A stretch of DNA of 37,819 nucleotides from Lachnospiraceae bacterium (GTDB lineage Bacteria; Bacillota; Clostridia; Lachnospirales; Lachnospiraceae): contig JAFSBX010000087.1 of assembly GCA_017437065.1 (NCBI GenBank), forward strand, positions 1 through 37,819, written 5' to 3'. This document shows, in pieces, positions 16,207 to 37,819 of the stretch. The position numbers were made by a program, and so were the translations under genes. The notes beneath the pieces were generated by a model. That model had not been told where the DNA came from, searched no databases, and saw only the letters and a program-made list of their open reading frames with translations. Position 1 is the stretch's first letter; the number at the start of each line of letters is the position of its first letter.

Positions 16207-16241
16207 GGCATGTTGCACAAAATAATTTTGTGCAACATGCC
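16207..16241. repeat. 35-base perfect inverted repeat
   Basis: GGCATGTTGCACAAAA at 16207-16222 is exactly mirrored at 16226-16241 around TAA. No T run follows, so it is not a standard terminator. It lies between the terminator of the microprotein gene and the YbaK-type gene. It could be a regulator operator, an RNA hairpin in the leader of that gene, or a small dispersed palindromic element. Confidence 0.75.
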
Positions 16242-16307
16242 TACGACAGGTTTTTGAATGGGAATATTAAGTCTGAGTGTAGTAGATTAATTAGGAGTAT
16301 AGAGAGG

Positions 16308-16871
16308 ATGAGTATAAGTATGAGTATGGAATTAGAGGCTGGGAGACCGAGGAGTTTGGCGGGGAGATTGGAGAAGGAGATTAGGGTTTATGATTTGCTG
16401 GATAGTTTAGGGATTGAGTATATGCGGGTGGATCATGATGTTTTGCCGACTATGGAGGCTTGTCGGGAAGTGGATAAGATTTTGGATAGTTTTATTTGTA
16501 AGAATTTGTTTTTGTGTAATTCACAGAAAACGAAGTTTTATTTGTTGATGATGCCGGGAGAGAAGAAGTTTAAGACGAAGGAGCTTTCGGCGCAGATAAA
16601 TAGTGCGAGGCTTTCTTTTGCAGGTGAAGAGTATATGGAAGAGTTTTTGGACATCACGCCTGGCTCTGTCAGTGTATTAGGATTAATGAATGACAAGGAA
16701 GGGAAGGTGCAGCTTTTGGTGGATGAGGATGTACTTGCAGGAGAGTATATCGGATGTCATCCGTGCATGAATACTTCCAGTTTGAAAATTAAAACCCGTG
16801 ATTTGCTTGATAAGTTTTTGAAGGCGGTGGAGCATGAACCGATGATTGTAGCATTGAAAGGTGAAGCATAA
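16308..16871 (+). CDS. YbaK/ProX-type aminoacyl-tRNA deacylase
   Basis: About 187 residues. The YbaK/EbsC fold hydrolyses mischarged tRNA, typically Ala-tRNA-Pro or Cys-tRNA-Pro, in trans in the cytosol. Visible family features are EKEIRVYDLLDSLGIEY, DHDVLPTMEA, KNLFLCN (catalytic Lys region), KFYLLMMPGEKKF, and the C-terminal GYIGCHP-like EYIGCHPCMNTSS. Start choice: TAGGAG at 16292-16297 favours ATG 16308. Homology would also allow 16326 (MELEAGRP). Codons here end in G far more often than in neighbouring genes (GGG, AGG, TTG, GTG). Confidence 0.85.
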   Translation: MSISMSMELEAGRPRSLAGRLEKEIRVYDLLDSLGIEYMRVDHDVLPTMEACREVDKILDSFICKNLFLCNSQKTKFYLLMMPGEKKFKTKELSAQINSARLSFAGEEYMEEFLDITPGSVSVLGLMNDKEGKVQLLVDEDVLAGEYIGCHPCMNTSSLKIKTRDLLDKFLKAVEHEPMIVALKGEA

Positions 16872-16968
16872 GAAGTAAAAGTGTGATGGAAGAAGAGTGT
16901 TAACAGACGCTTTTGAAAAGCGTTTGATAGGTTGGATGATAGTTTGGAGGAAGCGGAGAGGGCTGGTT

Positions 16969-17739
16969 ATGATGCAGATAGATAGAAAAAAGGTTAAGAG
17001 TGTGTTCGCGGCTTATGTGGAGAATTATAATAGTAAGGACGAAAAGGTAAGACTGAAAATTGAGCATACATACAGGGTGGCAGAACTTTGTGAGCAGATT
17101 GCAAAGAGTATTGGATGCACGGAGTATGAAGCAGATTTGTCGTGGCTGACAGGAATGTTGCATGATATAGGGCGTTTTGAGCAGTTGAAAAATTATGGTA
17201 CTTTTATTGATGCGGAGTCTATTGACCATGCGGCATATGGTGCAGATATTTTGTTCAAAGAAGGAAAAATTAGGGATTATATTGAGGATAGTGAAGAGGA
17301 TGAACTGATAGAAAATGCCGTTCGTTTTCATAGTGCGTACCGCCTGCCGGAAAGCTTTGATGAAAGGACAAAGAAGTTCAGTGATATTTTAAGGGATGCG
17401 GATAAGGTTGATATTTTAAAAGTTAATGTGGATTTTCCGTTGGAAGAAATTTATAACGTGACTACGGAAGAATTAAGGAATGCGGAAGTGACGACAGAGG
17501 TTATGAAGAGTTTGCAGGAAAAACAGGCCACACTGCGAAGTCTGAAGAAAACTTCTGTGGATCATGTTGTGGGACATATTTCGTTGGTGTTTGAGTTGGT
17601 GTATGTGGAAAGTGTGCGTGTAGTGAAGGAGCAGGGGTATTTGGAAAAGTTGCTTTCGTTTCAGTCATGGAATGAGAAGACAAGAGAGCAGTTTCAGAAG
17701 ATACGGGCAGTGATGGAGGAGTATTTGGTGGAGATGTAG
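16969..17739 (+). CDS. HD-domain phosphohydrolase
   Basis: A soluble protein of about 256 residues with a metal-binding HD domain: EHTYRVAELC, the HD pair in GMLHDIGRFEQL, HAAYGADILF, HSAYRLPE, and a final Asp in RDADKVDIL. The family hydrolyses phosphate esters, often of nucleotides; substrate unknown. GGAGAGGG near 16955 supports ATG 16969 or 16972. It follows the YbaK-like gene by 97 bases and shares its G-ending codon preference. Confidence 0.85.
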   Translation: MMQIDRKKVKSVFAAYVENYNSKDEKVRLKIEHTYRVAELCEQIAKSIGCTEYEADLSWLTGMLHDIGRFEQLKNYGTFIDAESIDHAAYGADILFKEGKIRDYIEDSEEDELIENAVRFHSAYRLPESFDERTKKFSDILRDADKVDILKVNVDFPLEEIYNVTTEELRNAEVTTEVMKSLQEKQATLRSLKKTSVDHVVGHISLVFELVYVESVRVVKEQGYLEKLLSFQSWNEKTREQFQKIRAVMEEYLVEM

Positions 17740-25135: not shown

Positions 25136-26698
25136 ATGAATATGGGACAGGAACTTTCCAAAGAAAAAGTAATTGTCATTGACTTTGGCGGTCAGTACAA
25201 CCAGTTGGTTGCAAGACGCGTCAGAGAATGTAATGTTTACTGTGAAATATATTCTTATAGAACAGACATTGAACAGATTAAAGCAATGAATCCGAAAGGA
25301 ATTATTCTTACCGGCGGACCGAACAGCTGTTATGAAGCGGATTCACCGACATATACAAAAGAATTATTTGAACTTGGTATTCCGGTATTGGGACTTTGCT
25401 ATGGTGCCCAGCTGATGATGCATGTATTGGGTGGTAAAGTAGAAAAAGCGCCGGTACGCGAATATGGTAAGACAGAGGTTATGGTGGACAAGTCTTCTCC
25501 GTTATTTGGCGATGTGGCAGCTACCACAATTTGCTGGATGAGTCATTTTGATTATATTTCTCAGATTGCACCGGGATTCAAAATTACTGCACATACGGCA
25601 GATTGTCCGGTGGCAGCAGCAGAAAATGCAGAAAAGAATCTTTATGCTATACAGTTCCATCCTGAAGTACTTCATACACAGGAAGGAACAAAGATGCTTT
25701 ATAATTTCGTACGAGGTGTCTGTGGTTGTGCAGGTACTTGGAGAATGGATTCTTTCGTGGAGAATTCTATTAAAGCAATCAGAGAAAAAGTCGGAGACGG
25801 TAAAGTATTGTGTGCGTTGTCCGGCGGTGTGGATTCTTCTGTGGCAGCAGTTATGTTGGCTAAAGCAATCGGCGATCAGCTTACTTGTGTATTTGTTGAT
25901 CATGGTTTGCTTCGTAAAAATGAAGGCGATGAAGTAGAGGAAGTTTTTGGTCCGAATGGTCCTTATGAATTGAATTTTATCCGAGTAAATGCACAGGAAC
26001 GTTTCTACGGAAAGCTTGCCGGAGTAGAAGAACCGGAGCAGAAGCGTAAGATTATCGGTGAAGAATTTATCCGTGTATTTGAAGAAGAAGCAAAGAAAAT
26101 CGGAGCAGTGGACTTCCTTGTACAGGGAACCATTTATCCGGACGTAGTAGAGAGCGGACTTGGTGGTGAGTCAGCGGTGATTAAGTCTCATCATAATGTT
26201 GGAGGTCTGCCGGATTATGTAGATTTCAAAGAGATTATTGAGCCGCTTCGTGATTTATTTAAGGATGAGGTTCGTAAAGCTGGTTTGGAAATGGGAATTC
26301 CTGAGAAACTGGTATTCCGTCAGCCATTCCCGGGTCCGGGACTTGGAATCCGTATTATCGGTGAAGTAACTGCTGATAAGGTGAAGATTGTTCAGGATGC
26401 GGATGCTATTTATCGTGAAGAGGTTGCAAATGCCGGAATGGATAGAACGATTGGACAGTATTTTGCGGCGCTTACGAATATGCGGTCTGTTGGTGTTATG
26501 GGGGACGAGAGAACCTATGACTATGCAGTGGCGCTTAGAGCGGTGAATACGGTGGATTTTATGACAGCAGAAGCGGCAGAGATACCGTTTGAGGTGTTGC
26601 AGAAGGTTATGAGTAGGATTATTAACGAGGTGAAAGGCGTTAATAGGGTATTCTATGATTTGACGAGTAAGCCGCCGGGGACGATTGAGTTTGAATAG
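25136..26698 (+). CDS. guaA: GMP synthase (glutamine-hydrolysing)
   Basis: The final step of GMP synthesis: amination of XMP using glutamine and ATP. 520 residues. The class I amidotransferase domain carries Cys88 in [10 protein letters not shown] and the His-Glu of FHPEVLHT. The ATP pyrophosphatase domain contains [12 protein letters not shown]. The dimerisation domain ends in KPPGTIEFE, the canonical terminus. It is complete and normal. RBS TAGGAGGAG. No purine riboswitch fits into the 43 bases upstream. The last 150 bases use more G-ending codons than the rest. Confidence 0.97.
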
Positions 26699-26705
26699 TA
26701 GCATA

Positions 26706-26747
26706 AAGTCTGGGAAGCCTTTTAAACAGGGCATTCCCGGGCTTTTT
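26706..26747 (+). terminator. Intrinsic terminator of guaA
   Basis: AAGTCTGGGAAGCC (26706-26719) pairs with GGCATTCCCGGGCTT (26729-26743), with one bulge and two G-U pairs, followed by a T run. Confidence 0.88.
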
Positions 26748-26763
26748 CTTTTGATTTGCTAAT

Positions 26764-26865
26764 AAAATGCTACTAACAGCATTTTGGGCAACTATTCTTA
26801 TTCACATCGTTTTATTTCTTAGATAGCTTTTCGTTGAGGCATCGGGATAACCTTTCCGGATGCCT
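26764..26865. other. Two short stem-loops between guaA and the integrase remnant
   Basis: AAAATGCT (26764-26771) and AGCATTTT (26778-26785) form one hairpin. AGGCATC (26837-26843) and GATGCCT (26859-26865) form another just past the integrase stop. Integrase-side attachment sites are often near such structures, but no direct repeat proving an att site was found within the window by eye. Confidence 0.35.
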
Positions 26866-26868
26866 TTT

Positions 26869-27450
26869 CTAATGTATCCAGAAGTGGATTGCCCATTGGA
26901 GGTTCTGGTGTGGTGTAACCGGTGCATTAGTTGCAAGTTGTTCCAGATTGGTGACAAGTTCCTGCTGTTTGTGTGGAAACAGGTGGGAGTAAGTATTCAG
27001 TGTTGTGGATACCTTTTCGTGTCCCAGTCTGTCAGCAAGGATAAGTGCATCACAGCCCTGATTGATAAGTAAACTGGCGTGGGAGTGACGGATGTCATGA
27101 ATTCGTATTCTCTTCACACCGGTTTTCTTGCTACCACGCTCCATCTCATGGGAGAGGAAGTGCTTGGTAGCCGGGAACAGTCTTTCATTAGGGGAAAGCA
27201 TATATCTTGTATCCATATAACTTTGTAGCTCCTGACACAGAAAATCCGGAATTGGAACCTTGCGCTTACTTTTCTTTGTCTTTGGCGGAGTGATAATATC
27301 CTGTCCGTTCAGACGCTGATAGGTTTTGTTAATATCAATCTGTTTTGCAACAAGGTCGATATCAGCAGCAGTAAGTGCCAGAAGTTCCCCTTCACGCATT
27401 CCTGTCCAGTAGAGTACCTGAAAGCAGATATAGGAGGAGAAGATTCGTTT
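26869..27450 (-). pseudogene. 5'-truncated tyrosine-family integrase
   Basis: The frame is open from 27450 down to TAG at 26869-26871, preceded by TGA at 27453-27451, and has no proper start. The surviving part is the catalytic domain: first Arg in TGMREGELLAL, a beta-hairpin KRKVPIPD, HDIRHSHASLL, LADRLGHEKV, and the nucleophile Tyr in NTYSHLFP. All catalytic residues remain, but the N-terminal arm-binding and core-binding domains are missing, so it is probably inactive. It resembles the ICE/prophage integrase group (Tn916-like). An internal ATG at 27399 could start a fragment. It marks the junction between guaA and the accessory gene cluster. Confidence 0.85.
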
Positions 27451-27510
27451 TCAGGAACAGTATTTTGATAGTGAGATTATGATGTGAAATATACTGGAGG
27501 AACAAAAGAA

Positions 27511-28350
27511 ATGAGTAAAAGTCTTGTTTTTATAGATGACTTTTCAAAAGAAGAGATATATGAAATATTCAAATTGGCAGATAAGTTTGCGGATGACATG
27601 AGTCAGTTGAAACATTTAGAAGGAAAGACGGTTGTACTATTCTTTCCGGAGAGTAGTATTCGCACAAGAGTAACATTCGAAAAAGGAATTCAGGAGTTAG
27701 GCGGGAAGACGATACTTTTTCCGCCGGAAGCACTTGATAAGAAAGAGAAAATCCAAGATGTGATAGGGTATTTGGAAAACTGGGTTGATGCTATTGTGGT
27801 GCGCCATAGCGATATTGAGGTTGTAAAAAGTATGGCGAAGCATGCAAAGATTCCTGTGATTAATGCGATGACTTCGGAAAATCATCCGTGTGAAATTATT
27901 GCGGATCTATATGCATTATCAAAGCTTTTTAAGGATATTGAAAAGAAGAAATTTTTGTTTGTGGGAGCAAAAGGGAATATTGGAAATACATGGAAAGCAG
28001 CGTCTGAATTGATGGGATTTGAGTTGGAGCAAAGTTGTCCTGGTGGATATGAGATAGACAATATTAAGTTTCATGCAAATATCGATGAAGCGGTTATTGG
28101 AAAAGATATCATATGTACTGACTCCATACCGAATGGTGCAAAGGAAGATTTTAAAGAATATCAAATCACCTTACAGCATATGCAGAAAGCGAATCAGGGT
28201 GCAATTTTGAATCCCTGCCCGCCGTTTTTTCGGGGAGAAGAGGTTTCAGAGGACGTAATGAACAGTGATTATTTTGTGGGCTATGAATTTAAGAACTGTC
28301 TGATAAATGTACAGCAGGCAATTCTATGCTATTTGTTGGACAAGAAATGA
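27511..28350 (+). CDS. Aspartate/ornithine carbamoyltransferase family protein, divergent
   Basis: 279 residues, cytosolic. It transfers a carbamoyl group from carbamoyl phosphate to an amine. The phosphate-binding motif is SSIRTR (48-53, the SxRTR loop) and the second loop is HPCE (125-128, family consensus HPxQ). In place of the ornithine enzyme's HCLP loop it has NPCPPFFRGEE (234-244), resembling the aspartate-type HPxPxxRGxE. The acceptor is therefore neither obviously ornithine nor aspartate. TGGAGG ten bases before ATG 27511 decides the start; an upstream GTG at 27484 has no such site. It leads the ten-gene accessory cluster. Confidence 0.82.
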   Translation: MSKSLVFIDDFSKEEIYEIFKLADKFADDMSQLKHLEGKTVVLFFPESSIRTRVTFEKGIQELGGKTILFPPEALDKKEKIQDVIGYLENWVDAIVVRHSDIEVVKSMAKHAKIPVINAMTSENHPCEIIADLYALSKLFKDIEKKKFLFVGAKGNIGNTWKAASELMGFELEQSCPGGYEIDNIKFHANIDEAVIGKDIICTDSIPNGAKEDFKEYQITLQHMQKANQGAILNPCPPFFRGEEVSEDVMNSDYFVGYEFKNCLINVQQAILCYLLDKK

Positions 28351-28383
28351 TATAAAATATTTGACAGGAGATGTTTGGAATAA

Positions 28384-28827
28384 ATGATAGTCAGAGAAGC
28401 CAATATAAATGATTTGAATGAAATATTGCAGTTATATTTGTATCTTCATGAGGAAAGCATTCCGGAGGATACAGAGCATTTACGAAACACATGGAAGAGT
28501 ATTATTAGTGATGTGAATCATCATCTTATTGTTTGCGAAGTGGATAATAAAATTGTGGCATCCTGTGTATGTGTGATTATACCAAATCTTACAAGAAATG
28601 TGCGCTCATATGCTTTTGTGGAAAATGTGGTAACACATGGAGATTATCGTAAGAAAGGATATGCGACAGCCTGTTTGAATTATGCAAAGCAGATTGCAGA
28701 AGAAAACAATTGCTATAAGATGATGCTACTGACAGGTTCTAAGGAAGAAAGTACATTAAATTTCTATCGGAATGCCGGGTATAACAGCTCGGACAAGACG
28801 GCGTTTATCCAGTGGATTGATATGTAA
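28384..28827 (+). CDS. GNAT-family N-acetyltransferase
   Basis: 147 residues, a single GCN5-like acyl-CoA-dependent transferase domain. The pyrophosphate-binding region is VVTHGDYRKKGYATACL (R/Q-x-x-G-x-A pattern). The C-terminal strand and helix are MLLTGSKEESTLNFYRNAGY. It acetylates an amine; the acceptor is unknown. It lies 33 bases after the carbamoyltransferase, with AGGAG upstream. Confidence 0.88.
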   Translation: MIVREANINDLNEILQLYLYLHEESIPEDTEHLRNTWKSIISDVNHHLIVCEVDNKIVASCVCVIIPNLTRNVRSYAFVENVVTHGDYRKKGYATACLNYAKQIAEENNCYKMMLLTGSKEESTLNFYRNAGYNSSDKTAFIQWIDM

Positions 28828-28882
28828 AAAAATATGAATTAATAATTGTTTGGTAAAAATTATTGTAATGTTGGAGGTAAGT

Positions 28883-29521
28883 ATGATAATAGAAAATGCC
28901 ATAGAATATGTAAAACAGATATTTGCGAATGATTGTAGTGGGCATGACTATCATCATACCATGAGAGTTTATCGATTGACGGTGCAGATTGCAAAGCAGG
29001 AAAATGCAGATATGCTGATTGTGCAACTGGCAGCATTGTTGCACGATGTGGATGATGCAAAACTTTCACCGGAAACTTATGCTACGAAGAAAAATGCAAT
29101 TGATTTTATGGAAAGCAACGGTGTCGATAATAAAATGATTGAAATTGTATGTAAGATTATTGCGGAAGTATCGTTTGTGGGAACTGATTCAGTTGTGCCA
29201 AGTACGATAGAAGGTAAATGCGTGCAGGATGCGGACAGGCTGGATGCAATGGGTGCAATTGGAATTGCAAGAACATTTGCGTATGGTGGCAGTAAAGGCA
29301 GAAAGATATATGATCCGGAAATAAAGCCTCTGGTTAATATGAGTAAAGAGGAGTATCGCCAAAATCAAAATTCTACAAGCATTAATCATTTTTATGAAAA
29401 GTTGCTATTGCTAAAAGATATGATGAATACGGAAACTGCAAAGAGAATGGCTGAGCATAGACAAGCTGTTATGGAAGCCTATCTTGAGGAATTTATGACA
29501 GAGTGGGAAGGAGAATGGTGA
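28883..29521 (+). CDS. HD-domain phosphohydrolase, YpgQ/YedJ-like
   Basis: 212 residues. Metal ligands are visible in GHDYHHTMRV, the HD pair in LAALLHDVDD, and Asp in VQDADRLDAMGAIGIART. This last stretch is typical of the YedJ/YpgQ branch. Bacillus YpgQ has been reported as a manganese-dependent nucleotide pyrophosphohydrolase acting on (d)NTPs, so a house-cleaning or nucleotide-directed role is possible here. GGAGG five bases before ATG 28883 decides the start. It ends one base before the next gene. Confidence 0.87.
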   Translation: MIIENAIEYVKQIFANDCSGHDYHHTMRVYRLTVQIAKQENADMLIVQLAALLHDVDDAKLSPETYATKKNAIDFMESNGVDNKMIEIVCKIIAEVSFVGTDSVVPSTIEGKCVQDADRLDAMGAIGIARTFAYGGSKGRKIYDPEIKPLVNMSKEEYRQNQNSTSINHFYEKLLLLKDMMNTETAKRMAEHRQAVMEAYLEEFMTEWEGEW

Positions 29522-29522
29522 T

Positions 29523-30836
29523 ATGTTGAATATAAAATTTTATGATACAGTGGATGATGCAGTGTTGAAGTTTGCTGTGATTATTTCTCAGAGTGATGGC
29601 AAGTGGGTATTGTGTAAGCATAAGGAACGGGATACATATGAAGTTCCGGGAGGACATCGTGAAGCGGGAGAAGATATTTTAGAGACGGCGAAGAGGGAAC
29701 TGCAAGAAGAAACAGGTGCTGTTAAATTTGATATAGAACCGGTATGTGTGTATTCTGTCACTGGTAAAAACAGTTTAAATGAAACAGGCGAAGAAACGTA
29801 TGGATTATTATGTTTTGCAGAGATAATGGAATTTTCAGGTGAGTTGGAATGTGAGATTGAAAAAGTAGAGCTTATGGATGAATTGCCGGAAAACTGGACA
29901 TATCCATTGATACAACCAAAGTTGATGGAAGAATGGAGAAGACGGCAGGCGTGGGGAGATATAGACAGCAGTAAGGAGTGGAAAATAATTCAGAAAATTA
30001 CAAAAGGGTGGTCGGCAGACACAAAATATAAAATATTCACTAGACAGGGCGAGACTTTATTGTTACGTTTGGCAGACATTGATAAGTATGATGAAAAGAA
30101 AAAAGAGTTTGATATTATTACGAAGTATTCAGAAATAGGCATTCCTATGTCAATGCCTATTGATTTTGGTGTATGCAATCAAAATAAAAGTGTATATATG
30201 ATTTTGACTTGGGTAGAAGGACAAGATTTGGAAAGTGTTTTGCCTGGATTGTCAGAGAAAGAACAATTTGCTCTGGGAAGATTGGCGGGTGATATTTTAA
30301 AGAAAATACATAGCATATATGTAGAAGAAGAGGATATACCGACTAATACAAAGGCAGACAAAAAAATATTGCAGTTATCGAGATATGAATCATCAAATGT
30401 TAGAGTTGCAAATGATGAGATTGCAGTTAAATATGTGAAAGAAAATATACACAAGATATGGAAAGAAAAACCTGTGTATCAGCATGGAGATTTTCATCCG
30501 GGAAATCTAATATATATGGAAAATGGTGAAATTGGTGTGATAGACTTTAATCGTTGGGAAGTAGGCGATCCGTATGAAGAGTTTTATAAATTGGAAAGTT
30601 TTGCCAGAGAATTAAGCATTCCATACTGTATAGGTCAGATACAGGCATATTTTAATGATAATATTCCGGAAGATTTTTGGAGTATTCTTGCTGTGTATGT
30701 GGCGCATGCTTCATTGTTTTCAATAAAATGGGCAGAAAAGTTTGGACAGACAGATATAGATGCAATGGTTGAGAGATGTATGGTTGCTTTTGAAGACTAT
30801 GATTATTTTAGAAGAGATATACCGATTTGGTATTAA
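29523..30836 (+). CDS. NUDIX hydrolase fused to APH-type phosphotransferase
   Basis: A single 437-residue reading frame with two enzymes. Residues 1-145 form a NUDIX domain with a perfect box from G44 (GHREAGE, then RELQEETGA, E62 and E63 as metal ligands). Residues about 150-437 form an aminoglycoside/choline-kinase-type domain: RQGETLLLRLADI, YMILTWVEGQD (hinge), catalytic HGDFHPGN (H321-N328) and metal Asp341 in VIDF. NUDIX enzymes cut nucleoside-diphosphate-linked compounds; APH enzymes phosphorylate hydroxyls. The join is in frame with no stop. Consecutive action on one substrate is inference. AAGGAG precedes ATG 29523. Confidence 0.9.
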   Translation: MLNIKFYDTVDDAVLKFAVIISQSDGKWVLCKHKERDTYEVPGGHREAGEDILETAKRELQEETGAVKFDIEPVCVYSVTGKNSLNETGEETYGLLCFAEIMEFSGELECEIEKVELMDELPENWTYPLIQPKLMEEWRRRQAWGDIDSSKEWKIIQKITKGWSADTKYKIFTRQGETLLLRLADIDKYDEKKKEFDIITKYSEIGIPMSMPIDFGVCNQNKSVYMILTWVEGQDLESVLPGLSEKEQFALGRLAGDILKKIHSIYVEEEDIPTNTKADKKILQLSRYESSNVRVANDEIAVKYVKENIHKIWKEKPVYQHGDFHPGNLIYMENGEIGVIDFNRWEVGDPYEEFYKLESFARELSIPYCIGQIQAYFNDNIPEDFWSILAVYVAHASLFSIKWAEKFGQTDIDAMVERCMVAFEDYDYFRRDIPIWY

Positions 30837-30902
30837 GAGTGAATAAGTGAAACGGTGTTTAGCTTTTTACAATTATTAGGATATAAGGAAGGAGTTAAGC
30901 AT

Positions 30903-31661
30903 ATGAGAGATATGCATGTACATACTGAATTTTCTTGTGATTCGGATGCGAAAATGGAAGATTATATTGAGAAGGCAAAAGCGAGTGGAATAGGGACAAT
31001 ATGCTTTACTGATCACGTTGATTTGAATACAAATGATTATGGCTACAATTATTATTCAGCAGATAGATTTTGGGAGCGATTCAATGAGATAAAATATAAT
31101 GCAGATATGCTAATAGAACCATTAGCAGGAATAGAATTTGGTGAACCGCATTTGTATGAAAAGAACTTGAAGGAATTGACAAAATATCCATATGATTTTG
31201 TGATAGGAAGTATTCATTGGATAGGGGATATGTTTCCTTGTCAAAAGGTAAGAGAACAATATTCTGCCAAAGAATTTTATACATTGTATTGGAAAGAAGT
31301 CTTAAAAACGGTTCAGACAGGAGGATTTGATGCGTTAGGACATATTGATTTTCCAAAGCGTTATTATGGAGAAATCTACTATGAAGAAGCTGTCATCAAT
31401 GAAATATTCCGTAATCTGTTAGAGAAGGATTTGGTCATAGAAATTAATACATCTTCCTTGAGAAAGGGGCATGCACAGACTATGCCGGGAAAAGAATTAT
31501 TGGAGATATATAAAGCTAACGGTGGAAAATATGTCACAATAGGTTCGGATGCGCATGTTGTGGAGGACATAGGTGCAGATTACGAGACTGCAAAAAGTAT
31601 GTTAGAAGAAGTGGGATTGCAGGAAGTAATTTACAGACAAAGAAAGCGACAAATCATATAG
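30903..31661 (+). CDS. PHP-domain phosphatase, histidinol-phosphatase (HisJ)-like
   Basis: 252 residues. The metal-binding PHP fold is seen in RDMHVHTEFSCDS, CFTDHVDLN, GIEFGEPH, VIGSIHWIGD, DALGHIDFPKRY, and the final TIGSDAH. The HisJ/HisK branch dephosphorylates histidinol phosphate, but no other his gene is present, so the substrate here may differ. GGAG eight bases before ATG 30903 decides the start rather than an earlier ATG at 30855. Confidence 0.88.
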   Translation: MRDMHVHTEFSCDSDAKMEDYIEKAKASGIGTICFTDHVDLNTNDYGYNYYSADRFWERFNEIKYNADMLIEPLAGIEFGEPHLYEKNLKELTKYPYDFVIGSIHWIGDMFPCQKVREQYSAKEFYTLYWKEVLKTVQTGGFDALGHIDFPKRYYGEIYYEEAVINEIFRNLLEKDLVIEINTSSLRKGHAQTMPGKELLEIYKANGGKYVTIGSDAHVVEDIGADYETAKSMLEEVGLQEVIYRQRKRQII

Positions 31662-31681
31662 ATTATTTTTAGGTGAAAGAA

Positions 31682-32758
31682 ATGAAAGAATTAATTATTA
31701 AGGATATCAAAGAAGATTACTCCTTAGAAGAATACTTATCAGTGTCAAAATATATAAACTGGAAGGACAACAGAATCCTATCAAAGACTGATGAATTTAA
31801 ACAGAAATATGTAGATGAAATTTCTCTGATTAAAGCTATTTATGAGTATGTGCGTGATGAAATAAAACATTCTTGGGATGTTCAGGACAAGCGTGTGACA
31901 AAATCTGCTACAGAAGTGCTGGAACAGGGCGTTGGTATATGCTGGGCAAAAGCAAATCTTCTTGCGGCGTTTCTTCGAGCATGTGGAATCGCTGCCGGTA
32001 TTTGTTATCAGCGTCTCACATTAGGCGATGTACCCGAAACCGGATTTTGTATCCATGCATTAAATGCAGTTTATATCACATCATTTAACAGATGGATTTG
32101 CTTGGATGCAAGAGGTAATAAAGAAGGTGTAGATGCACAGTTTGATTTGGAGCAGGAAAGATTAGCTTTCCCGGTGCGTAGTGATTTGGGAGAGGTAGAT
32201 TATGGGATAGTTTATGCAAACCCATCTGACAAGTTGATGCAGGTATTAGAAGAGAATACGGATGCACTTTATATGTACCTAAATTGTTTGCCGGATAGTA
32301 TTTTTGAATATAAAAGAGCAACCATAGAAGACATAGATGAACTGGTAAGAACAAGGATTATCGTCCTTCGTGCAGCCAACAAATTGTCTGACGATGTGGA
32401 TATGTCAACGGTGGAAAAGGAGTCTTGTGCATATTATAAGCGGGCGTTAGAAAACGGTGAACATATTGCATATCTGGTGTATGATAATGGAACATTTATC
32501 GGTGCAGGTGGTGTCAGTTTCTATCAGGTAATGCCCACATATGATAATCCGACTGGTAAAAAGGCTTATATTATGAATATGTATACAGCACCGGAGTATA
32601 GAAGACAGGGAATTGCAATTCATACATTGGATTTACTGGTAAAGGATGCGAGGGAACAGGGCGTGTCGCAGATTGCTTTAGAGGCAACAGATATGGGGCG
32701 GCCATTGTATGAAAAATATGGATTTGTAAAAATGGAAGATGAAATGGAGTTGATATGA
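31682..32758 (+). CDS. Transglutaminase-like domain fused to GNAT acetyltransferase
   Basis: 358 residues. Residues about 1-195 form a transglutaminase/papain-like domain with Cys87 (GVGICWAKANLL), His125 (CIHALNAVY) and Asp142 (CLDARGN) as a complete triad. Residues about 210-358 form a GNAT domain (EYKRATIEDIDELV, then TAPEYRRQGIAIHTLDLL and YEKYGFVKME). The first domain may cut or transfer amide bonds; the second acetylates amines. ATG 31682 is preferred; an in-frame GTG lies 9 bases earlier. The end overlaps the next start by four bases. Confidence 0.88.
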   Translation: MKELIIKDIKEDYSLEEYLSVSKYINWKDNRILSKTDEFKQKYVDEISLIKAIYEYVRDEIKHSWDVQDKRVTKSATEVLEQGVGICWAKANLLAAFLRACGIAAGICYQRLTLGDVPETGFCIHALNAVYITSFNRWICLDARGNKEGVDAQFDLEQERLAFPVRSDLGEVDYGIVYANPSDKLMQVLEENTDALYMYLNCLPDSIFEYKRATIEDIDELVRTRIIVLRAANKLSDDVDMSTVEKESCAYYKRALENGEHIAYLVYDNGTFIGAGGVSFYQVMPTYDNPTGKKAYIMNMYTAPEYRRQGIAIHTLDLLVKDAREQGVSQIALEATDMGRPLYEKYGFVKMEDEMELI

Positions 32759-33456
32759 TGCATAAAGTAACAGACTTACAACCTTGGGAATGTCTCATGA
32801 AGCGAATTGTCTGGAAACAATTAGGAGAAATTCGAGATAAAAAGATACTTGATTTTGGTAGTGGCATTGGGATAACTGCAAACTATCTGGCAGAACATAA
32901 CGATGTAACAGCTATTGAACCGGATGGAGATAGCATAAAGGAGCGATGGGCAGACAACCAATACACACAAATTGCTGGTAGTACCAATGAATTGCACAAA
33001 TTTGATAATGAGACCTTTGATATGATTATCTGTCACAATGTCTTGGAGTATGCCGAAGATAGAGCGGATATTGTTAAGGAGTTTGCAAGGATTTTAAAAC
33101 CTAATGGCAAGATTTCTATTGTGAAACATAATCGTGCAGGTCGGGTTATGCAGATGGTTGTACTTTTGAATGATTTTGAACATGCCCATAGCTTGTTGGA
33201 TGGTAATGATGGAACGGCTTCCAAGTACGGAGCAATTCGTTACTATGAGGATACAGATATTGAGAAATGGTGTCCGGAACTTGTGATTACGAAGACATTG
33301 GGGATGAGAACTTTCTGGGATATGCAACAAAATCAGGAAATACATAAGGATGTTGATTGGCAGGATAAAATGGTGGAAATCGAGATGCGGGTATCGGATA
33401 TGGATGGATATAAAGACATTGCATTTTTTCATCATTTGATGATTGAGAAGAAATAG
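32755..33456 (+). CDS. SAM-dependent methyltransferase
   Basis: 233 residues, a class I methyltransferase. The SAM loop is ILDFGSGIGITANYLAEH. An acidic residue follows in VTAIEPDG, and motif IV is FDMIICHNVLEYAED. The helix-strand order is normal, and the C-terminal region (ITKTLGMRTFWDMQ) probably shapes the substrate pocket. Methylation target unknown. The start overlaps the previous stop as ATGA, so it is translationally coupled to the transglutaminase-GNAT protein. Confidence 0.88.
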   Translation: MMHKVTDLQPWECLMKRIVWKQLGEIRDKKILDFGSGIGITANYLAEHNDVTAIEPDGDSIKERWADNQYTQIAGSTNELHKFDNETFDMIICHNVLEYAEDRADIVKEFARILKPNGKISIVKHNRAGRVMQMVVLLNDFEHAHSLLDGNDGTASKYGAIRYYEDTDIEKWCPELVITKTLGMRTFWDMQQNQEIHKDVDWQDKMVEIEMRVSDMDGYKDIAFFHHLMIEKK

Positions 33457-33466
33457 GAGACACAGT

Positions 33467-34063
33467 ATGACAAGAGTGTATTTCGTGCGTCACGCACAGC
33501 CGGAACATAGTTGGAAAGAAGACAGAACAAGACCTTTGACGGAAGAAGGAAAGAAAGATTCGGCAATTGTACTGAAATTTTTGAAGGATAAGAAAATAGA
33601 TGCGTTTTATTGTAGTCCATACAAACGCAGCATGGATACCATTGCAGATGCGGCAGCTTTTTTCGGAAAAGAAATTATAACAGATGAGAGATTAAGGGAG
33701 CGTGAAAAAGGACCTGATGGCAACAACCACGGAATGTTCCAGAAACGTTGGGTTGACCATGATTATCATGAAGAGGGTGGAGAATCCATTGCTATGGTTC
33801 AGAGACGCAATATGGAAGCACTGAACGAGATTTTATCAGATAATACGGATAAAGAGATTGTTATAGGAACCCATGGTACAGCCCTTAGTACGATATTGAA
33901 TTTTTATGACAATAGTTTTGGATGCGAAGATTTTCTGCGAATTATAGATTGGATGCCATATATTATCGAACTGGATTTTGAAGGCGATAAGTTGGTTGGC
34001 AAACAGGAACATTGCCATGTGGAGAAAGAATATAAGGGCAAGCAGCGTGCGGATAAGAAGTAA
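33467..34063 (+). CDS. Histidine phosphatase (phosphoglycerate-mutase fold)
   Basis: 198 residues. The catalytic histidine is H9 in YFVRHAQPE (the family usually has RHG). A second basic motif, FYCSPYKRSMDTI, follows, then the late GTHGTALS histidine. Such enzymes remove phosphate from small molecules, proteins or sugars. GGAG seven bases upstream fixes ATG 33467. The 10-base gap to the methyltransferase gene indicates one transcript. Confidence 0.88.
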   Translation: MTRVYFVRHAQPEHSWKEDRTRPLTEEGKKDSAIVLKFLKDKKIDAFYCSPYKRSMDTIADAAAFFGKEIITDERLREREKGPDGNNHGMFQKRWVDHDYHEEGGESIAMVQRRNMEALNEILSDNTDKEIVIGTHGTALSTILNFYDNSFGCEDFLRIIDWMPYIIELDFEGDKLVGKQEHCHVEKEYKGKQRADKK

Positions 34064-34093
34064 TACTGTTTTATTGATGGAAGGATTGTAGTT

Positions 34094-35155
34094 ATGCAAT
34101 ATGCAAGAAAATTAAGAAAAGGTGACAAGGTAGCAATTGTAAGCTTGTCGAGTGGAATGCTCGGTGAAGAATTTTGCAGTCATAATATTGAGATCGGTGT
34201 AAAGAGATTAAAAGAATATGGTTTGGAACCGGTATTTATGCCGAATGCTTTGAAAGGTATTGAATATTTGCAGGCTCATCCGGAAGCAAGGGCGAAAGAC
34301 TTAAAAGATACATTTTTAGATGAGTCTATTGCAGGGATTATTTGTGCAATCGGTGGTGATGATACATACAGACTTTTGCCTTATCTGATGGAAGATGATG
34401 AGTTCATAAAAGAGGTAGAGAAGTATCCTAAATTATTTACAGGATTTTCAGATACTACGATTAATCATCTCATGTTTTACAAGCTGGGATTGTCTACCTA
34501 TTACGGACTAAACTTTATTTGTGATTTGGGAGAAATTGCAGATGAAATGTTACCATATACGAAAAGGGCATTTGAGGGATATTTGGAAGGCAATGAATTT
34601 GATGAAATTGTATCCAGCGACATTTGGTATGAAGAAAGAGAAGATTTTTCTAGATCTGCAATAGGAACAGAAAGAAAAACTCATAAAGAAGAACGTGGTT
34701 TTGAACTTCTGCAGGGAGGTGAAATTTTTCAAGGTGAATTATTGGGCGGATGCTTGGAAAGTCTTTATGATATATTGACCAATAGTAGATATGAGGATGA
34801 AAAGGAAGTTTGTGAGAGATATGGTCTGTTTCCGGATAAGGAAGAGTGGAGAGGAAAAATTCTGTTTATAGAAACTTGTGAAGAAAAACCGAGTCCGGAA
34901 TTGTTTGAAAGAGAAGTTCTATTGCTGAAAGAAAAGGGAGTATTTGACGTGGTAAATGGTGTGTTGGTTGGAAAACCACAGGATGAAGCTTTTTATCAGG
35001 AATATAAAGATATTCTTATTAAAGTAATAGATAATGAGAAACTTCCGATTGTTTATAATGTGAATTTTGGGCATGCTACACCGCGGTGTGCATTGCAGTA
35101 TGGTGTTGTTGCAAAGGTAGATATGAAACAGAAAAAGATTTTTGTGAACAAGTAG
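34094..35155 (+). CDS. S66-family LD-carboxypeptidase, MccF-like
   Basis: 353 residues. The catalytic Ser119 is in GFSDTT, Glu222 in GGCLESL and His327 in FGHATP, a complete Ser-Glu-His triad. The N-terminus LRKGDKVAIVSLSSG and the AIGGDDTYRLLP loop match the MccF subgroup rather than the murein-recycling LdcA group. MccF enzymes give resistance to microcin C-like peptide-nucleotides by cutting the amide link, so an immunity or detoxifying role fits. Length is typical of MccF (about 345). Confidence 0.87.
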   Translation: MQYARKLRKGDKVAIVSLSSGMLGEEFCSHNIEIGVKRLKEYGLEPVFMPNALKGIEYLQAHPEARAKDLKDTFLDESIAGIICAIGGDDTYRLLPYLMEDDEFIKEVEKYPKLFTGFSDTTINHLMFYKLGLSTYYGLNFICDLGEIADEMLPYTKRAFEGYLEGNEFDEIVSSDIWYEEREDFSRSAIGTERKTHKEERGFELLQGGEIFQGELLGGCLESLYDILTNSRYEDEKEVCERYGLFPDKEEWRGKILFIETCEEKPSPELFEREVLLLKEKGVFDVVNGVLVGKPQDEAFYQEYKDILIKVIDNEKLPIVYNVNFGHATPRCALQYGVVAKVDMKQKKIFVNK

Positions 35156-35166
35156 GAGAAGGTGTT

Positions 35167-35874
35167 ATGGCTGTATCATATAACAAATTATGGAAACTGT
35201 TAGTAGATAAAAAGATGAGTAAATCAGATTTGCGTAAAAAGGCAGAAATTGCTCCTAATACAATGACAAAATTACGCCGTGATGAAGAGGTAAGTCTTAC
35301 TATTCTTAGCAAGATATGTAAGACTTTGAATGCAGATTTTGGTGATATTGTAGAGTATGTACCGGATGCAGAAATTTGGGACTTGTATGATGAAAATAGG
35401 GAACTTATCGGACGGGAACATGTCAGAGGTGAGCAGTTACCGATAGACGGATACCATCTGGTGGTGCATGTTTGGATTCGAAATTCCAAGGGAGAGTATC
35501 TGATTGCGCAGCGTTCTGCAAATAGACCAACGTATCCGCTGATGTGGGAGTGTGTAGGTGGGGCGGTTGTGAAAGGTGAGGACAGTCTGTTAGGAGCAAT
35601 CAGAGAAGCAAAAGAAGAAGTTGGTGTTGACTTGAATCCGGAAAACGGACAAGTTCTTTTTACAAAAACACGAAAAATCATAGAGGGTAAAATCTTTAAT
35701 GATATTATGGATGTTTGGTTATTTGAGTATGATGGAGAGGTTGATTTGGGTAATGCTACAACAGATGAAGTGACACAGGTTACATGGATGAATCGGGAGC
35801 AAATTAAGGAACTGTTTAAACATAACATGTTTGTGGAGACATTGGAATACTTCTTTACGGAAGTGGATGATTAA
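35167..35874 (+). CDS. Cro/C1-type HTH fused to NUDIX domain, putative regulator
   Basis: 235 residues. Residues 1-65 form a Cro/C1-like helix-turn-helix of the small HTH_26 type (KSDLRKKAEIAPNTMTKLRR, LSKICKTLNADFGDIVEYV). Residues about 95-225 form a NUDIX domain (GAVVKGE...REAKEEVGV, with both metal Glu), with the IPP-isomerase/8-oxo-like lead WIRNSKGEYLIAQRS. It could sense a nucleotide-derived metabolite and control the cluster, comparable in principle to NrtR (a NUDIX-wHTH). It may also keep hydrolase activity. GGAG seven bases before ATG 35167 decides the start. Confidence 0.87.
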   Translation: MAVSYNKLWKLLVDKKMSKSDLRKKAEIAPNTMTKLRRDEEVSLTILSKICKTLNADFGDIVEYVPDAEIWDLYDENRELIGREHVRGEQLPIDGYHLVVHVWIRNSKGEYLIAQRSANRPTYPLMWECVGGAVVKGEDSLLGAIREAKEEVGVDLNPENGQVLFTKTRKIIEGKIFNDIMDVWLFEYDGEVDLGNATTDEVTQVTWMNREQIKELFKHNMFVETLEYFFTEVDD

Positions 35875-35905
35875 GGAACTGTAATATTTACTCAGGAGGA
35901 ATCAG

Positions 35906-36287
35906 ATGATAGAAAAAAATGATGATATATAGCAAAGGAATATCGACTTGTTAATAACAGGATATTGGTATGAGGATTTACCACCAGTTATAGATATAAT
36001 AAACATGAAAGCAATAATAAAGAGGATTATTGAAAATATTGATAATCATATATATGATGACTTTTATAAAACGAATGGAATAATAACTGAATATAAAAAT
36101 ACGCAGGCACCATCATATATATTTAATGACGGAATAGAATCTGTAACTTTCTTTGAATTTAAGAAGAATGGTGCATTGAGAGATGCAAATTCCTAATTTG
36201 AAATATTATTGTACATTTGTTTATAACACAATTTATATGGATGGAAAGGGTGATGTGAAATGGCAAACGAATTGGAAAGAGCATTAA
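35906..36287 (+). pseudogene. Decayed gene of unknown family: nonsense codon and frameshift
   Basis: CAGGAGGA leads to ATG 35906, but TAG stops the frame at 35930-35932. The same frame then stays open (NIDLLITGYWYEDLPPVIDI onwards) until TAA at 36195. One frame away, from about 36180, the protein seems to continue (EMQIPNLKYYCTFVYNTIYM) to about 36240, where the next gene begins. A translation start at TTG 35948 for an 82-residue product is possible but has no ribosome site. The simplest reading is a broken gene. Confidence 0.6.
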
Positions 36288-37198
36288 ATAATTACAAGAA
36301 AAATATGGATGCTAATAGAAAAGGAGATGCTGCCTGTTATGACAGCTTCTTTAAATATTGTATGGAAGAAGGATTATCAAAGTATCCTCTGAAAAAATTG
36401 TTTGTGGAATATATTAGCATGCACAGTATAGTAGAAGCTTGTAGAACCTATGTTGAAGAAAGTAAGAAGACAAAAACGATGCAAGCTATTAATAGATACT
36501 TGATTGCAATGGATAAGTTTTATGTAAACTACATAAAAAAGCAGGGGATTATATGTGACGAGCTTGAAGCAGGATGTCATAGAAAAGAAGTTATAAATGA
36601 TGTGGCTAATTCTATGAATGAAAAGTTGGGTAGTAGAAGAATAACTGTACCCATGAAACCTAACGAGATAGAAGCGATGGAAGAAGTTATTAAAACCTTG
36701 AATTGTGAAAGTCATTATCAATATGGTCAAATTGTAAGGTATAGACTCATGCTTGAATATGGATTTAAAAGTGAAGTCCTTTTGGATTTGAGATTGGAAC
36801 AGTTTGATGAGGAGACATTATCATTTAATTTAGAATATGCTGAAGATATTCACTTTAAACTGTTCTTAGACGAAGAATTAGGAAATATGGTAAAAAGATA
36901 TTGCGGAATGAATTGCAAAAAGGATAGGAAATGGCTATTTACTAATTCAAATGGAAAGAAGATATCTTCGCCTTACATAATGGATGAATTAAGAAAAAGA
37001 GCAAAAGAAAACTTTAATATTGCAGGATTTAGCCCCATGGCTACAGGGCTTACAGGTGTACAAAAATTATTAGAAAAAGGAATGACTATTGCTGAGATAA
37101 AACTGCTTACAGGTTTTGGAATACAAAAAATAGATGATGTAGCCGAATATATGTTGATGGCACAAGATATTGAAAAAGTAATAAACGAAAAGCTTTAA
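36260..37198 (+). CDS. Tyrosine-recombinase-like protein lacking catalytic residues
   Basis: 312 residues. An N-terminal helical SAM-like region (about 1-125) and a C-terminal domain (about 135-305) follow the order of phage integrases. MLEYGFKSEVLLDLRLEQF matches the place of the first Arg (TGxRxxEllxL), but Lys-Ser replaces the Arg. FSPMATGLTGVQKLL replaces HxLRHxxA, and TGFG replaces LGH. A Tyr remains in VAEYML. It may bind DNA without recombining, or act with an active partner. GGAAAGGG nine bases before ATG 36260; a terminator follows. Confidence 0.6.
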   Translation: MANELERALNNYKKNMDANRKGDAACYDSFFKYCMEEGLSKYPLKKLFVEYISMHSIVEACRTYVEESKKTKTMQAINRYLIAMDKFYVNYIKKQGIICDELEAGCHRKEVINDVANSMNEKLGSRRITVPMKPNEIEAMEEVIKTLNCESHYQYGQIVRYRLMLEYGFKSEVLLDLRLEQFDEETLSFNLEYAEDIHFKLFLDEELGNMVKRYCGMNCKKDRKWLFTNSNGKKISSPYIMDELRKRAKENFNIAGFSPMATGLTGVQKLLEKGMTIAEIKLLTGFGIQKIDDVAEYMLMAQDIEKVINEKL

Positions 37199-37213
37199 TG
37201 TAATTTAACGCGG

Positions 37214-37259
37214 CATTTCAATTTGTCATGCGGAGTCAAATATTGAAATGATTGTTTTT
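37214..37259 (+). terminator. Probable intrinsic terminator after the recombinase-like gene
   Basis: CATTTCAAT (37214-37222) pairs with ATTGAAATG (37242-37250), followed by ATTGTTTTT. Confidence 0.65.
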
Positions 37260-37322
37260 GATTAAGCAGGCAATTTGGAAAACTTCTAAGTCCGTTCGCA
37301 ATCTTGAATAAAAACAAGAAAG

Positions 37323-37343
37323 AATTCGTACAGAGAACGAATT
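37323..37343. other. Short hairpin in the leader of the last gene
   Basis: AATTCGT (37323-37329) and ACGAATT (37337-37343) are inverted copies, 34 bases before the last gene. The rest of the 178-base gap holds only the terminator and a ribosome site. Confidence 0.35.
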
Positions 37344-37376
37344 TCAACGTATTAGAGCTACTGGAAAGGAGAGTAT

Positions 37377-37819
37377 ATGGATGATATAGCAGAGATAAAT
37401 TATAAATTTCATAATCATGATATTGAGAATATATGGCATATCTTTTTTTGCTTATCGAATACGACATTTTCATCAATAGAATTATCTTTTGGTAAAAGTG
37501 GAGCATATATATTGTCATGTGAAACAATGATGTCAATTTGTAAAACACTTGAAACTATTGATTTTTGTTTCTATAGGAATGTTTATTTAGATGCATATAC
37601 TTTAATCCGGAAAATTAGGGACGACTTAATGCAGTATTTATTTGTGTTGAATATTATACAGAATAAACATGGTTTAACAGATAAAGAATGTAAAGAATTT
37701 CGGTTAGATCCAGAATCAATGATGAAAATGATAGGATTAGATATTTCAATATTGATTTCAGGAGAAAGAAAAACAGAAGCAGAACATGCTATGGAGAAAT
37801 GGATTTACAATGTATTGGA
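37377..37819 (+). CDS. Uncharacterised protein, runs off the window
   Basis: The frame is open from ATG 37377 (GGAAAGGAG at 37362-37370) to the window end, at least 147 residues. It is mostly helical and aromatic-rich, with YLDAYTLIRKIRDDLMQYLF and ISGERKTEAEHAMEKWIY as its most distinctive stretches. There is no clear signal peptide or membrane helix. I recall similar uncharacterised proteins in Lachnospiraceae accessory islands, but give no function. Its end is outside the window. Confidence 0.7.
   Translation, partial: MDDIAEINYKFHNHDIENIWHIFFCLSNTTFSSIELSFGKSGAYILSCETMMSICKTLETIDFCFYRNVYLDAYTLIRKIRDDLMQYLFVLNIIQNKHGLTDKECKEFRLDPESMMKMIGLDISILISGERKTEAEHAMEKWIYNVL

Follow-up and report, generated by a model that had tools for sequence, protein, structure and literature searches.

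A ten-gene row of enzyme modules in a Lachnospiraceae genome is probably one copy of a mosaic, mobile cargo array

The contig JAFSBX010000087.1 of the Lachnospiraceae bacterium assembly GCA_017437065.1 (genome of 3.9 Mb), analyzed here at its full length of 37,819 nucleotides and called the window below, carries ten plus-strand open reading frames (ORFs), g1 to g10, which span positions 27511–35874 and form a one-strand operon in the sense of a gene row. We consider it fairly likely that this row is a mobile, mosaic cargo array of stand-alone small-molecule-modifying enzyme modules kept in one orientation and largely in one order. It recurs across related gut Lachnospiraceae with members lost, swapped or fused, and this points to a mobile toolbox, which probably serves detoxification, and not to a single metabolic pathway. 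The intergenic gaps from g1 to g10 are 33, 55, 1, 66, 20, −4, 10, 30 and 11 bases; as stated in a preliminary description of this DNA, no gap exceeds 66 bases and two junctions are coupled or nearly so, g3/g4 being 1 base apart and g6/g7 overlapping by 4 bases. Several ORF starts were picked by their ribosome-binding sites. Judging from spacing and strand, all ten genes would be read from a single promoter upstream; scans of the operon found 3 terminators (4.4 expected from shuffles) and 45 promoters (42.8 expected), with no excess in either case.

The row comprises a divergent carbamoyltransferase of the ornithine/aspartate family (g1, 27511–28350; PF02729, E = 3e-38, and PF00185, E = 3e-13), a GNAT acetyltransferase (g2, 28384–28827; PF00583, E = 4e-16), an HD-domain phosphohydrolase (g3, 28883–29521; PF01966, E = 6e-12), a NUDIX head (about aa 1–141) fused to an APH-type kinase tail (g4, 29523–30836; PF00293, PF01636), a PHP-domain phosphatase of the HisJ family (g5, 30903–31661; PF02811, E = 1e-28), a fusion of a transglutaminase-like domain (about aa 1–205) with a GNAT domain (about aa 207–358) (g6, 31682–32758; PF01841, PF00583), a SAM-dependent methyltransferase (g7, 32755–33456; PF08241, E = 9e-17), a histidine phosphatase (g8, 33467–34063; PF00300, E = 6e-25), an S66 peptidase of an MccF-related group (g9, 34094–35155; PF02016, PF17676) and a fusion of an HTH_26 head with a NUDIX domain (g10, 35167–35874; PF13443, PF00293). 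The families named in the preliminary description are those found by Pfam, while the fusions in g4, g6 and g10 had been overlooked. Judged by eye, the catalytic motifs appear to be intact in most of the ten proteins.

A search of 160 genomes of the family with the ten proteins (E thresholds of 1e-40 for g1, g5 and g9 and 1e-25 for the rest) gave 176 matches in 86 other genomes, each gene being patchily distributed (3 to 33 of the 160 genomes, own genome counted). Below, family genomes are labelled G### (G000 being the own genome) and fetched loci L### (L162 being from G141). In the 159 other genomes, 25 of the 156 same-genome pairs of different window genes lie at most 10 kb apart, compared with 1.0 expected under random placement; for this count the own genome was excluded, the two halves of the G035 carbamoyltransferase were merged, and places were entered by hand. 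All 25 close pairs are on the same strand and 19 are in the window's order; they are not independent, coming from 13 genomes, with 12 pairs from G048 and G141.

By rule-based mapping (match of at least 50%, best hit per module), 40 of 141 loci hold at least two modules, and 39 of these 40 have all members on one strand (150 of 151 members). One order fits 344 of the 370 ordered pairs in 39 multi-gene arrays, whereas 300 shuffles averaged 269 and never exceeded 305. This test left out the short loci L001–L020 and L041–L060, the control regions L182–L201, the loci L061, L062, L063, L085, L097, L107, L121 and L031, which are the same region as another locus or near-identical to it, and the integrase, helicase, kinase and HAD modules; L021 and L022, which are halves of contig C95 of the own genome, were scored apart. 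An earlier, hand-chosen set of 34 arrays, from which some loci were omitted, gave 334 of 356 pairs (shuffles: mean 258, maximum 289), and the order obtained from these arrays with the window excluded agrees with 45 of the 55 window pairs, there being almost no constraint on the position of the transglutaminase-like and PHP modules. Since the same genes recur on one strand and mostly colinear, their clustering is more than chance, and gene order, whose conservation in related genomes the preliminary description had proposed as a check, is largely conserved.

The arrays themselves differ in content. A scan of a species collection with S66 gave 96 relatives, of which 80 were kept. The array of L142 starts with a relaxase, a PF12746 acetyltransferase with an internal gap and a HIT protein joined to a small pyrophosphatase-like module (L142:4725–5447), and continues with the carbamoyltransferase, g2, another GNAT, the GNAT half of g6, the methyltransferase, the histidine phosphatase and S66. 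In L116 a relaxase stump, an FMN reductase and a GNAT joined to the same pyrophosphatase-like module (L116:3363–4124) are followed by a Ham1 stump abutting an M24 stump, by g2 and by the other GNAT of L142, and the array ends with the g6 GNAT half, methyltransferase, histidine phosphatase, S66 and HTH-NUDIX. In the window, the stretch from g2 to the GNAT half of g6 is filled instead by the HD, NUDIX-APH and PHP genes and the transglutaminase-like domain. The array of L162 opens with a kinase-like protein, a pyrophosphatase-like protein, Ham1, an HD stump and a NUDIX-M24 fusion; next comes a GNAT whose first 17 residues are g2-like (by eye) and whose remainder resembles the g6 half, and at the end stand the histidine phosphatase, a helicase at the place of S66 and HTH-NUDIX. 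Ham1 matches were found in L162, L116, L093, L165 and L024, and pyrophosphatase-like matches in L162, L116, L142, L093 and L163, the latter label being weak (PF00719, E = 2e-4, below the cut-off).

The helicase (AAA_11/AAA_12, with DUF2726 in L162) replaces S66 at L162:10118–12847; in L104 (12151–14873) it follows S66 and is split into two frames. The own genome has a second, partly broken set at L021/L022 (G000:C95:53000–83000), with transglutaminase-like, HD, NUDIX and GNAT relatives at 43–69%, just before an apparent arginine-biosynthesis operon, and single relatives of g9, g1 and g7 on contigs C53, C81 and C62.

Stumps and in-frame fusions show that members are lost in place. Among 37 other near-complete S66 copies (identity of at least 70%), 22 lie no more than 6 kb from another window gene or a stump of one (match of at least 60%), and stumps or deletion joins were found in L081, L082, L083, L084, L094, L101, L108, L116, L142 and L162. 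Histidine phosphatase stumps precede S66 in L083, L084, L085 and L101, and HTH-NUDIX stumps come after it in L081 and L094; inspection by eye adds L096 and L097. At the junction in L084, four bases (GAAG, by eye) are shared, which is what illegitimate deletion should leave behind. Mobility of single-gene cassettes with exact ORF borders, which had been suggested by the homology starting between −30 and +15 of the start codon in 405 of 446 S66 pairs, was considered and found insufficient, since stumps of flanking genes lie beside S66. The neighbours of S66 (125 ORFs from 34 loci, excluding near-duplicates and ORFs of at least 1000 aa) include 19 with Acetyltransf_1, seven NUDIX, seven His_Phos_1, five Methyltransf_11 and four HAD domains, compared with at most one of 125 for each family in the controls (125 of the 216 control ORFs, located in 15 of the 20 regions fetched); this excess is in part the shared descent of the window's own genes.

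Divergence was estimated for the shared genes. The ratio of non-synonymous to synonymous substitution rates (dN/dS) is 0.05–0.16 in 10 of 11 comparisons, demonstrating purifying selection. Between the window and L116, dS is 0.17 (0.11–0.24) for g9, 0.24 for the g6 half and 0.30 for g8, compared with 0.70 (0.49–0.95) for g10 and 1.16 (0.74–2.82) for g2, and the interval for g9 is clear of those for g10 and g2. Since dS differs between neighbours in this array pair, at least some members have not always travelled together. In L092, S66 is 83% identical and guaA only 57%, which favours transfer of S66. These estimates indicate that the histories of neighbouring genes are mixed.

Comparison with relatives, in which the halves occur separately, also identifies g4, g6 and g10 as fusions at module borders. 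The NUDIX head of g4 is freestanding in L082, L163 and L022 and is otherwise joined to APH (the window), HAD (L109, L106 and L202), M24 (L162), a g6-type GNAT (L204) or a different GNAT (L203), and the APH part has matches without the NUDIX head in G049, G112, G055 and G131. Many genomes have separate matches to the two halves of g6, whose match to PDB entry 3mgd is restricted to aa 209–357. The HTH half of g10 is 75–78% identical to ORFs of 74–97 aa in G032, G156 and G174, PDB entry 3tyr, an HTH protein of 88 residues, matches aa 1–67 only, and the NUDIX half has matches without HTH in G135 and others. From this architecture, g10 is a possible ligand-sensing regulator.

The row lies next to guaA (GMP synthase; 25136–26698, plus strand; named by reading the translation, without a family search), the 3' end of which is a listed integration target of mobilizable elements (PMC5704250). 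Between the guaA end and g1, at the edge of the island, sits a truncated tyrosine integrase (26869–27399, minus strand; PF00589, E = 1.5e-18, model positions 36–169 of 172), which retains the catalytic half only and has matches at 52% identity in L092 and L163. In L142 a relaxase (PF03432, E = 7e-39) and a weak MobC match lie about 0.2 kb before the array, and fragments of this relaxase precede the arrays of L162 (86%), L108 (78%) and L116 (66%). Because four related arrays follow the relaxase or its fragments, the array probably travels on mobilizable elements, and the island setting proposed in the preliminary description agrees with these findings. The guaA neighbour, the tyrosine integrase and the relaxase beside related arrays are all shared with guaA-targeting integrative mobilizable elements. 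In Roseburia faecis (L109), a distance of about 0.9 kb, with one other ORF in it, separates the end of guaA (86% identical) from a NUDIX-HAD fusion, after which comes S66.

Base composition gave no clear island signal. Phage or plasmid cargo was also considered and rejected: no phage or plasmid record matches the DNA, the S66 relatives include one on a viral contig at 49% and ten on plasmids, all below 60%, and g6 gave none. Downstream, a tyrosine-recombinase-like ORF (36260–37198, plus strand; NF040815, E = 7e-9, 35.6 bits with a cut-off of 220) has no Pfam match at E 0.001 and probably lies outside the operon. It was rejected as a shuffling enzyme, having a weak XerA/integron-type match and no homologue in the fetched loci; judged by eye, it appears to lack the usual catalytic residues.

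Several observations concern single genes. The g1 protein is below the cut-off of all 14 NCBIfam models that it matched, including the ornithine carbamoyltransferase equivalog TIGR00658 (165 bits, cut-off 281), and in the alignment its ornithine-side motifs depart from the classical enzymes; with copies at 90% identity in L142 and 74% in L064, it represents a short divergent carbamoyltransferase family found in 12 of the 160 family genomes at E 1e-40. At E 1e-25, g2 is present in 31 of the 160. The g3 protein matches PDB entry 3djb (E = 9e-63) and, less strongly, yedJ (3gw7, E = 4e-22); an HD protein of its type stands beside NUDIX also in L163 and is a stump in L162. The APH tail of g4 fails the curated APH cut-off (NF033068, 42 bits, cut-off 205), and g5 is the only one of the ten proteins to reach a curated NCBIfam cut-off (TIGR01856, the broad HisJ family, 130 bits, cut-off 90); it was found in three of the 160 genomes at E 1e-40, its best other copy being 81% identical (G137). 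Close copies of g7 occur in L087 (89%) and L142 (90%), and of g8 in L162 and L086 (both 93%). The g9 protein carries both the N- and the C-terminal S66 domain, and its nearest PDB entry is 4e94, an 'MccC family protein' (E = 1.3e-126), the MccF chains being weaker (E = 4e-15 to 1e-18). Outside the operon, an aminoacyl-tRNA editing-domain protein adjoins an HD-domain hydrolase at 16230–17739.

The array resembles several known systems. In mosaic operons, genes are gained, lost and swapped by horizontal transfer (Omelchenko et al. 2003, as cited in PMC4481853); the array likewise gains, loses and swaps genes, and its neighbouring genes differ in history. The model as cited there is general; the members of the present array make up no recognisable pathway, are repeatedly fused at module borders and, in four relatives, have a relaxase or fragments of one as neighbour. 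Integron cassette arrays hold interchangeable single-gene cargo in one orientation, acetyltransferases and NUDIX proteins among it, and the row is like them in these respects. In contrast to integrons, it has no repeated sites between genes, and members are lost by deletion leaving stumps. An integron was rejected after nine direct-repeat families were found, with two copies each at 65–89% identity and none recurring from gap to gap, although divergent sites could escape such a search.

Immunity against microcin C-like compounds involves the MccF peptidase, the GNAT MccE and HIT hydrolases (MccH) (PMC9239234, PMC7157772). The likeness lies in g9, which belongs to the MccF-related S66 group, and in the GNATs common in the arrays; HIT matches of at least 52% occur in four S66 loci (L142, L108, L095 and L102) and one of 35% in L080, and no HIT match was found in the window. 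In contrast, no mcc biosynthesis gene can be recognised among the ten, and g9 is far closer to 4e94 than to the MccF chains. The link to microcin C-type immunity is a lead, not proof.

A number of observations weigh against a mobile, colinear array. The expectation of 1.0 close pairs assumes random placement, yet accessory genes cluster anyway, and many of the loci were fetched for a match, some of them for two, so that the mapping measures order rather than frequency. Twenty-six of the 370 ordered pairs conflict with the common order, including whole-gene changes of order in L086, L087, L104, L091, L113 and L148, and L024 has its two members on opposite strands. Twelve of the 37 S66 copies are without trace of another window module and three more have weak matches only. 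In the comparison with L087, three shared genes are alike in dS (0.69–0.97, overlapping intervals); among the selection comparisons, dS is saturated for APH (pN/pS, the corresponding ratio of proportions, is 0.32), and they left out the transglutaminase-like half of g6. Unlike the guaA-targeting mobilizable elements of the source cited above, the window has a truncated integrase and no match to the L142 relaxase within 26601–37819, and no second guaA end, the expected second attachment site, is seen in the contig, whose sequence ends 1.9 kb beyond the operon.

Other explanations of the row differ in how well they fit. House-cleaning of nucleotide pools and metabolites, in which NUDIX, HD, histidine phosphatase and PHP proteins dispose of abnormal phosphorylated compounds of metabolism, with the remaining genes as passengers, draws on the Ham1, pyrophosphatase-like and HIT modules in relatives, on the HD-NUDIX pair in L163 and the window, and on the NUDIX-HAD fusion, in which the HAD half scores against nucleotidase models, though under their cut-offs. 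However, the commonest S66 neighbours are acetyltransferases (19 of 125) and not phosphatases, the pyrophosphatase label is weak, and nucleotide sanitation does not account for S66, the carbamoyltransferase or APH; we regard this explanation as rather unlikely. The guaA neighbour, the truncated integrase and the extensive decay in relatives could also be explained by neutral build-up of stray acquired genes at a hotspot, with one direction arising by chance, but purifying selection in 10 of the 11 comparisons and the same strand and shared order across genera make this improbable.

A single pathway, be it natural-product biosynthesis, tailoring or self-resistance, might be read from ten genes in one row that combine transferases with a peptidase. 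It is highly improbable: none of the ten proteins has a carrier, synthetase or transporter domain by Pfam, which for transporters and carrier proteins bears out the preliminary description, and the content of the arrays varies between genomes, with S66 often occurring apart from the other genes, a pattern that speaks against tailoring or biosynthesis. Hardly any weight goes to an anti-phage defence operon, for which the SF1-type helicase at the place of S66 in L162 and half of its L104 relative, weakly matching anti-phage helicase models, could be cited; in the window, PADLOC gave weak hits only, to three of the ten proteins, the best being g7 to part of mad2 (46 bits), and we rejected this candidate.

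That the families are mixed and that genes survive singly speaks for a set of enzymes that each detoxify or clean up on their own, and on the sequence evidence the function is most likely that of independent enzymes of this kind carried as mobile cargo. Among the three readings offered in the preliminary description, detoxification or repair is accordingly the best, though unproven, and tailoring is disfavoured. The pool would comprise about 20 modules, with GNATs, NUDIX, HD, histidine phosphatase, S66, methyltransferase and carbamoyltransferase, and elsewhere Ham1, pyrophosphatase-like, HIT, FMN reductase, PF12746 acetyltransferase, M24 and HAD. Mobilizable elements would carry the arrays from genome to genome, this copy lying beside guaA; individual genes would be exchanged with other arrays by recombination, and members would disappear through illegitimate deletion. 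Within the cytosol, each enzyme would work independently on small molecules that are toxic or damaged: S66 most plausibly on aminoacyl- or peptidyl-nucleotides, the NUDIX, HD and phosphatase proteins on abnormal phosphates, and the GNAT, APH, methyltransferase and carbamoyltransferase proteins on amino- or hydroxy-compounds, with HTH_26-NUDIX (g10) as a local ligand-responsive regulator.

More tentatively, such rows may be mobile 'chemical immunity arrays' of gut Lachnospiraceae, a small-molecule counterpart of phage-defence islands, made of colinear, relaxase-linked, single-step detoxifying enzymes. Some of them would bundle S66, GNAT and HIT, classes that inactivate peptide-nucleotide antibiotics, with many others, and new bifunctional enzymes would arise by fusion, the NUDIX head having at least four kinds of partner. 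If the mosaic cargo array is real, gut bacteria would draw on a common stock of enzymes for detoxification and clean-up, exchanged in the form of an ordered array that can be edited, the divergent carbamoyltransferase, the MccF-related peptidase and the NUDIX fusions would share a common testable theme, and the related loci would provide a natural record of operon erosion and of the origin of fused enzymes.

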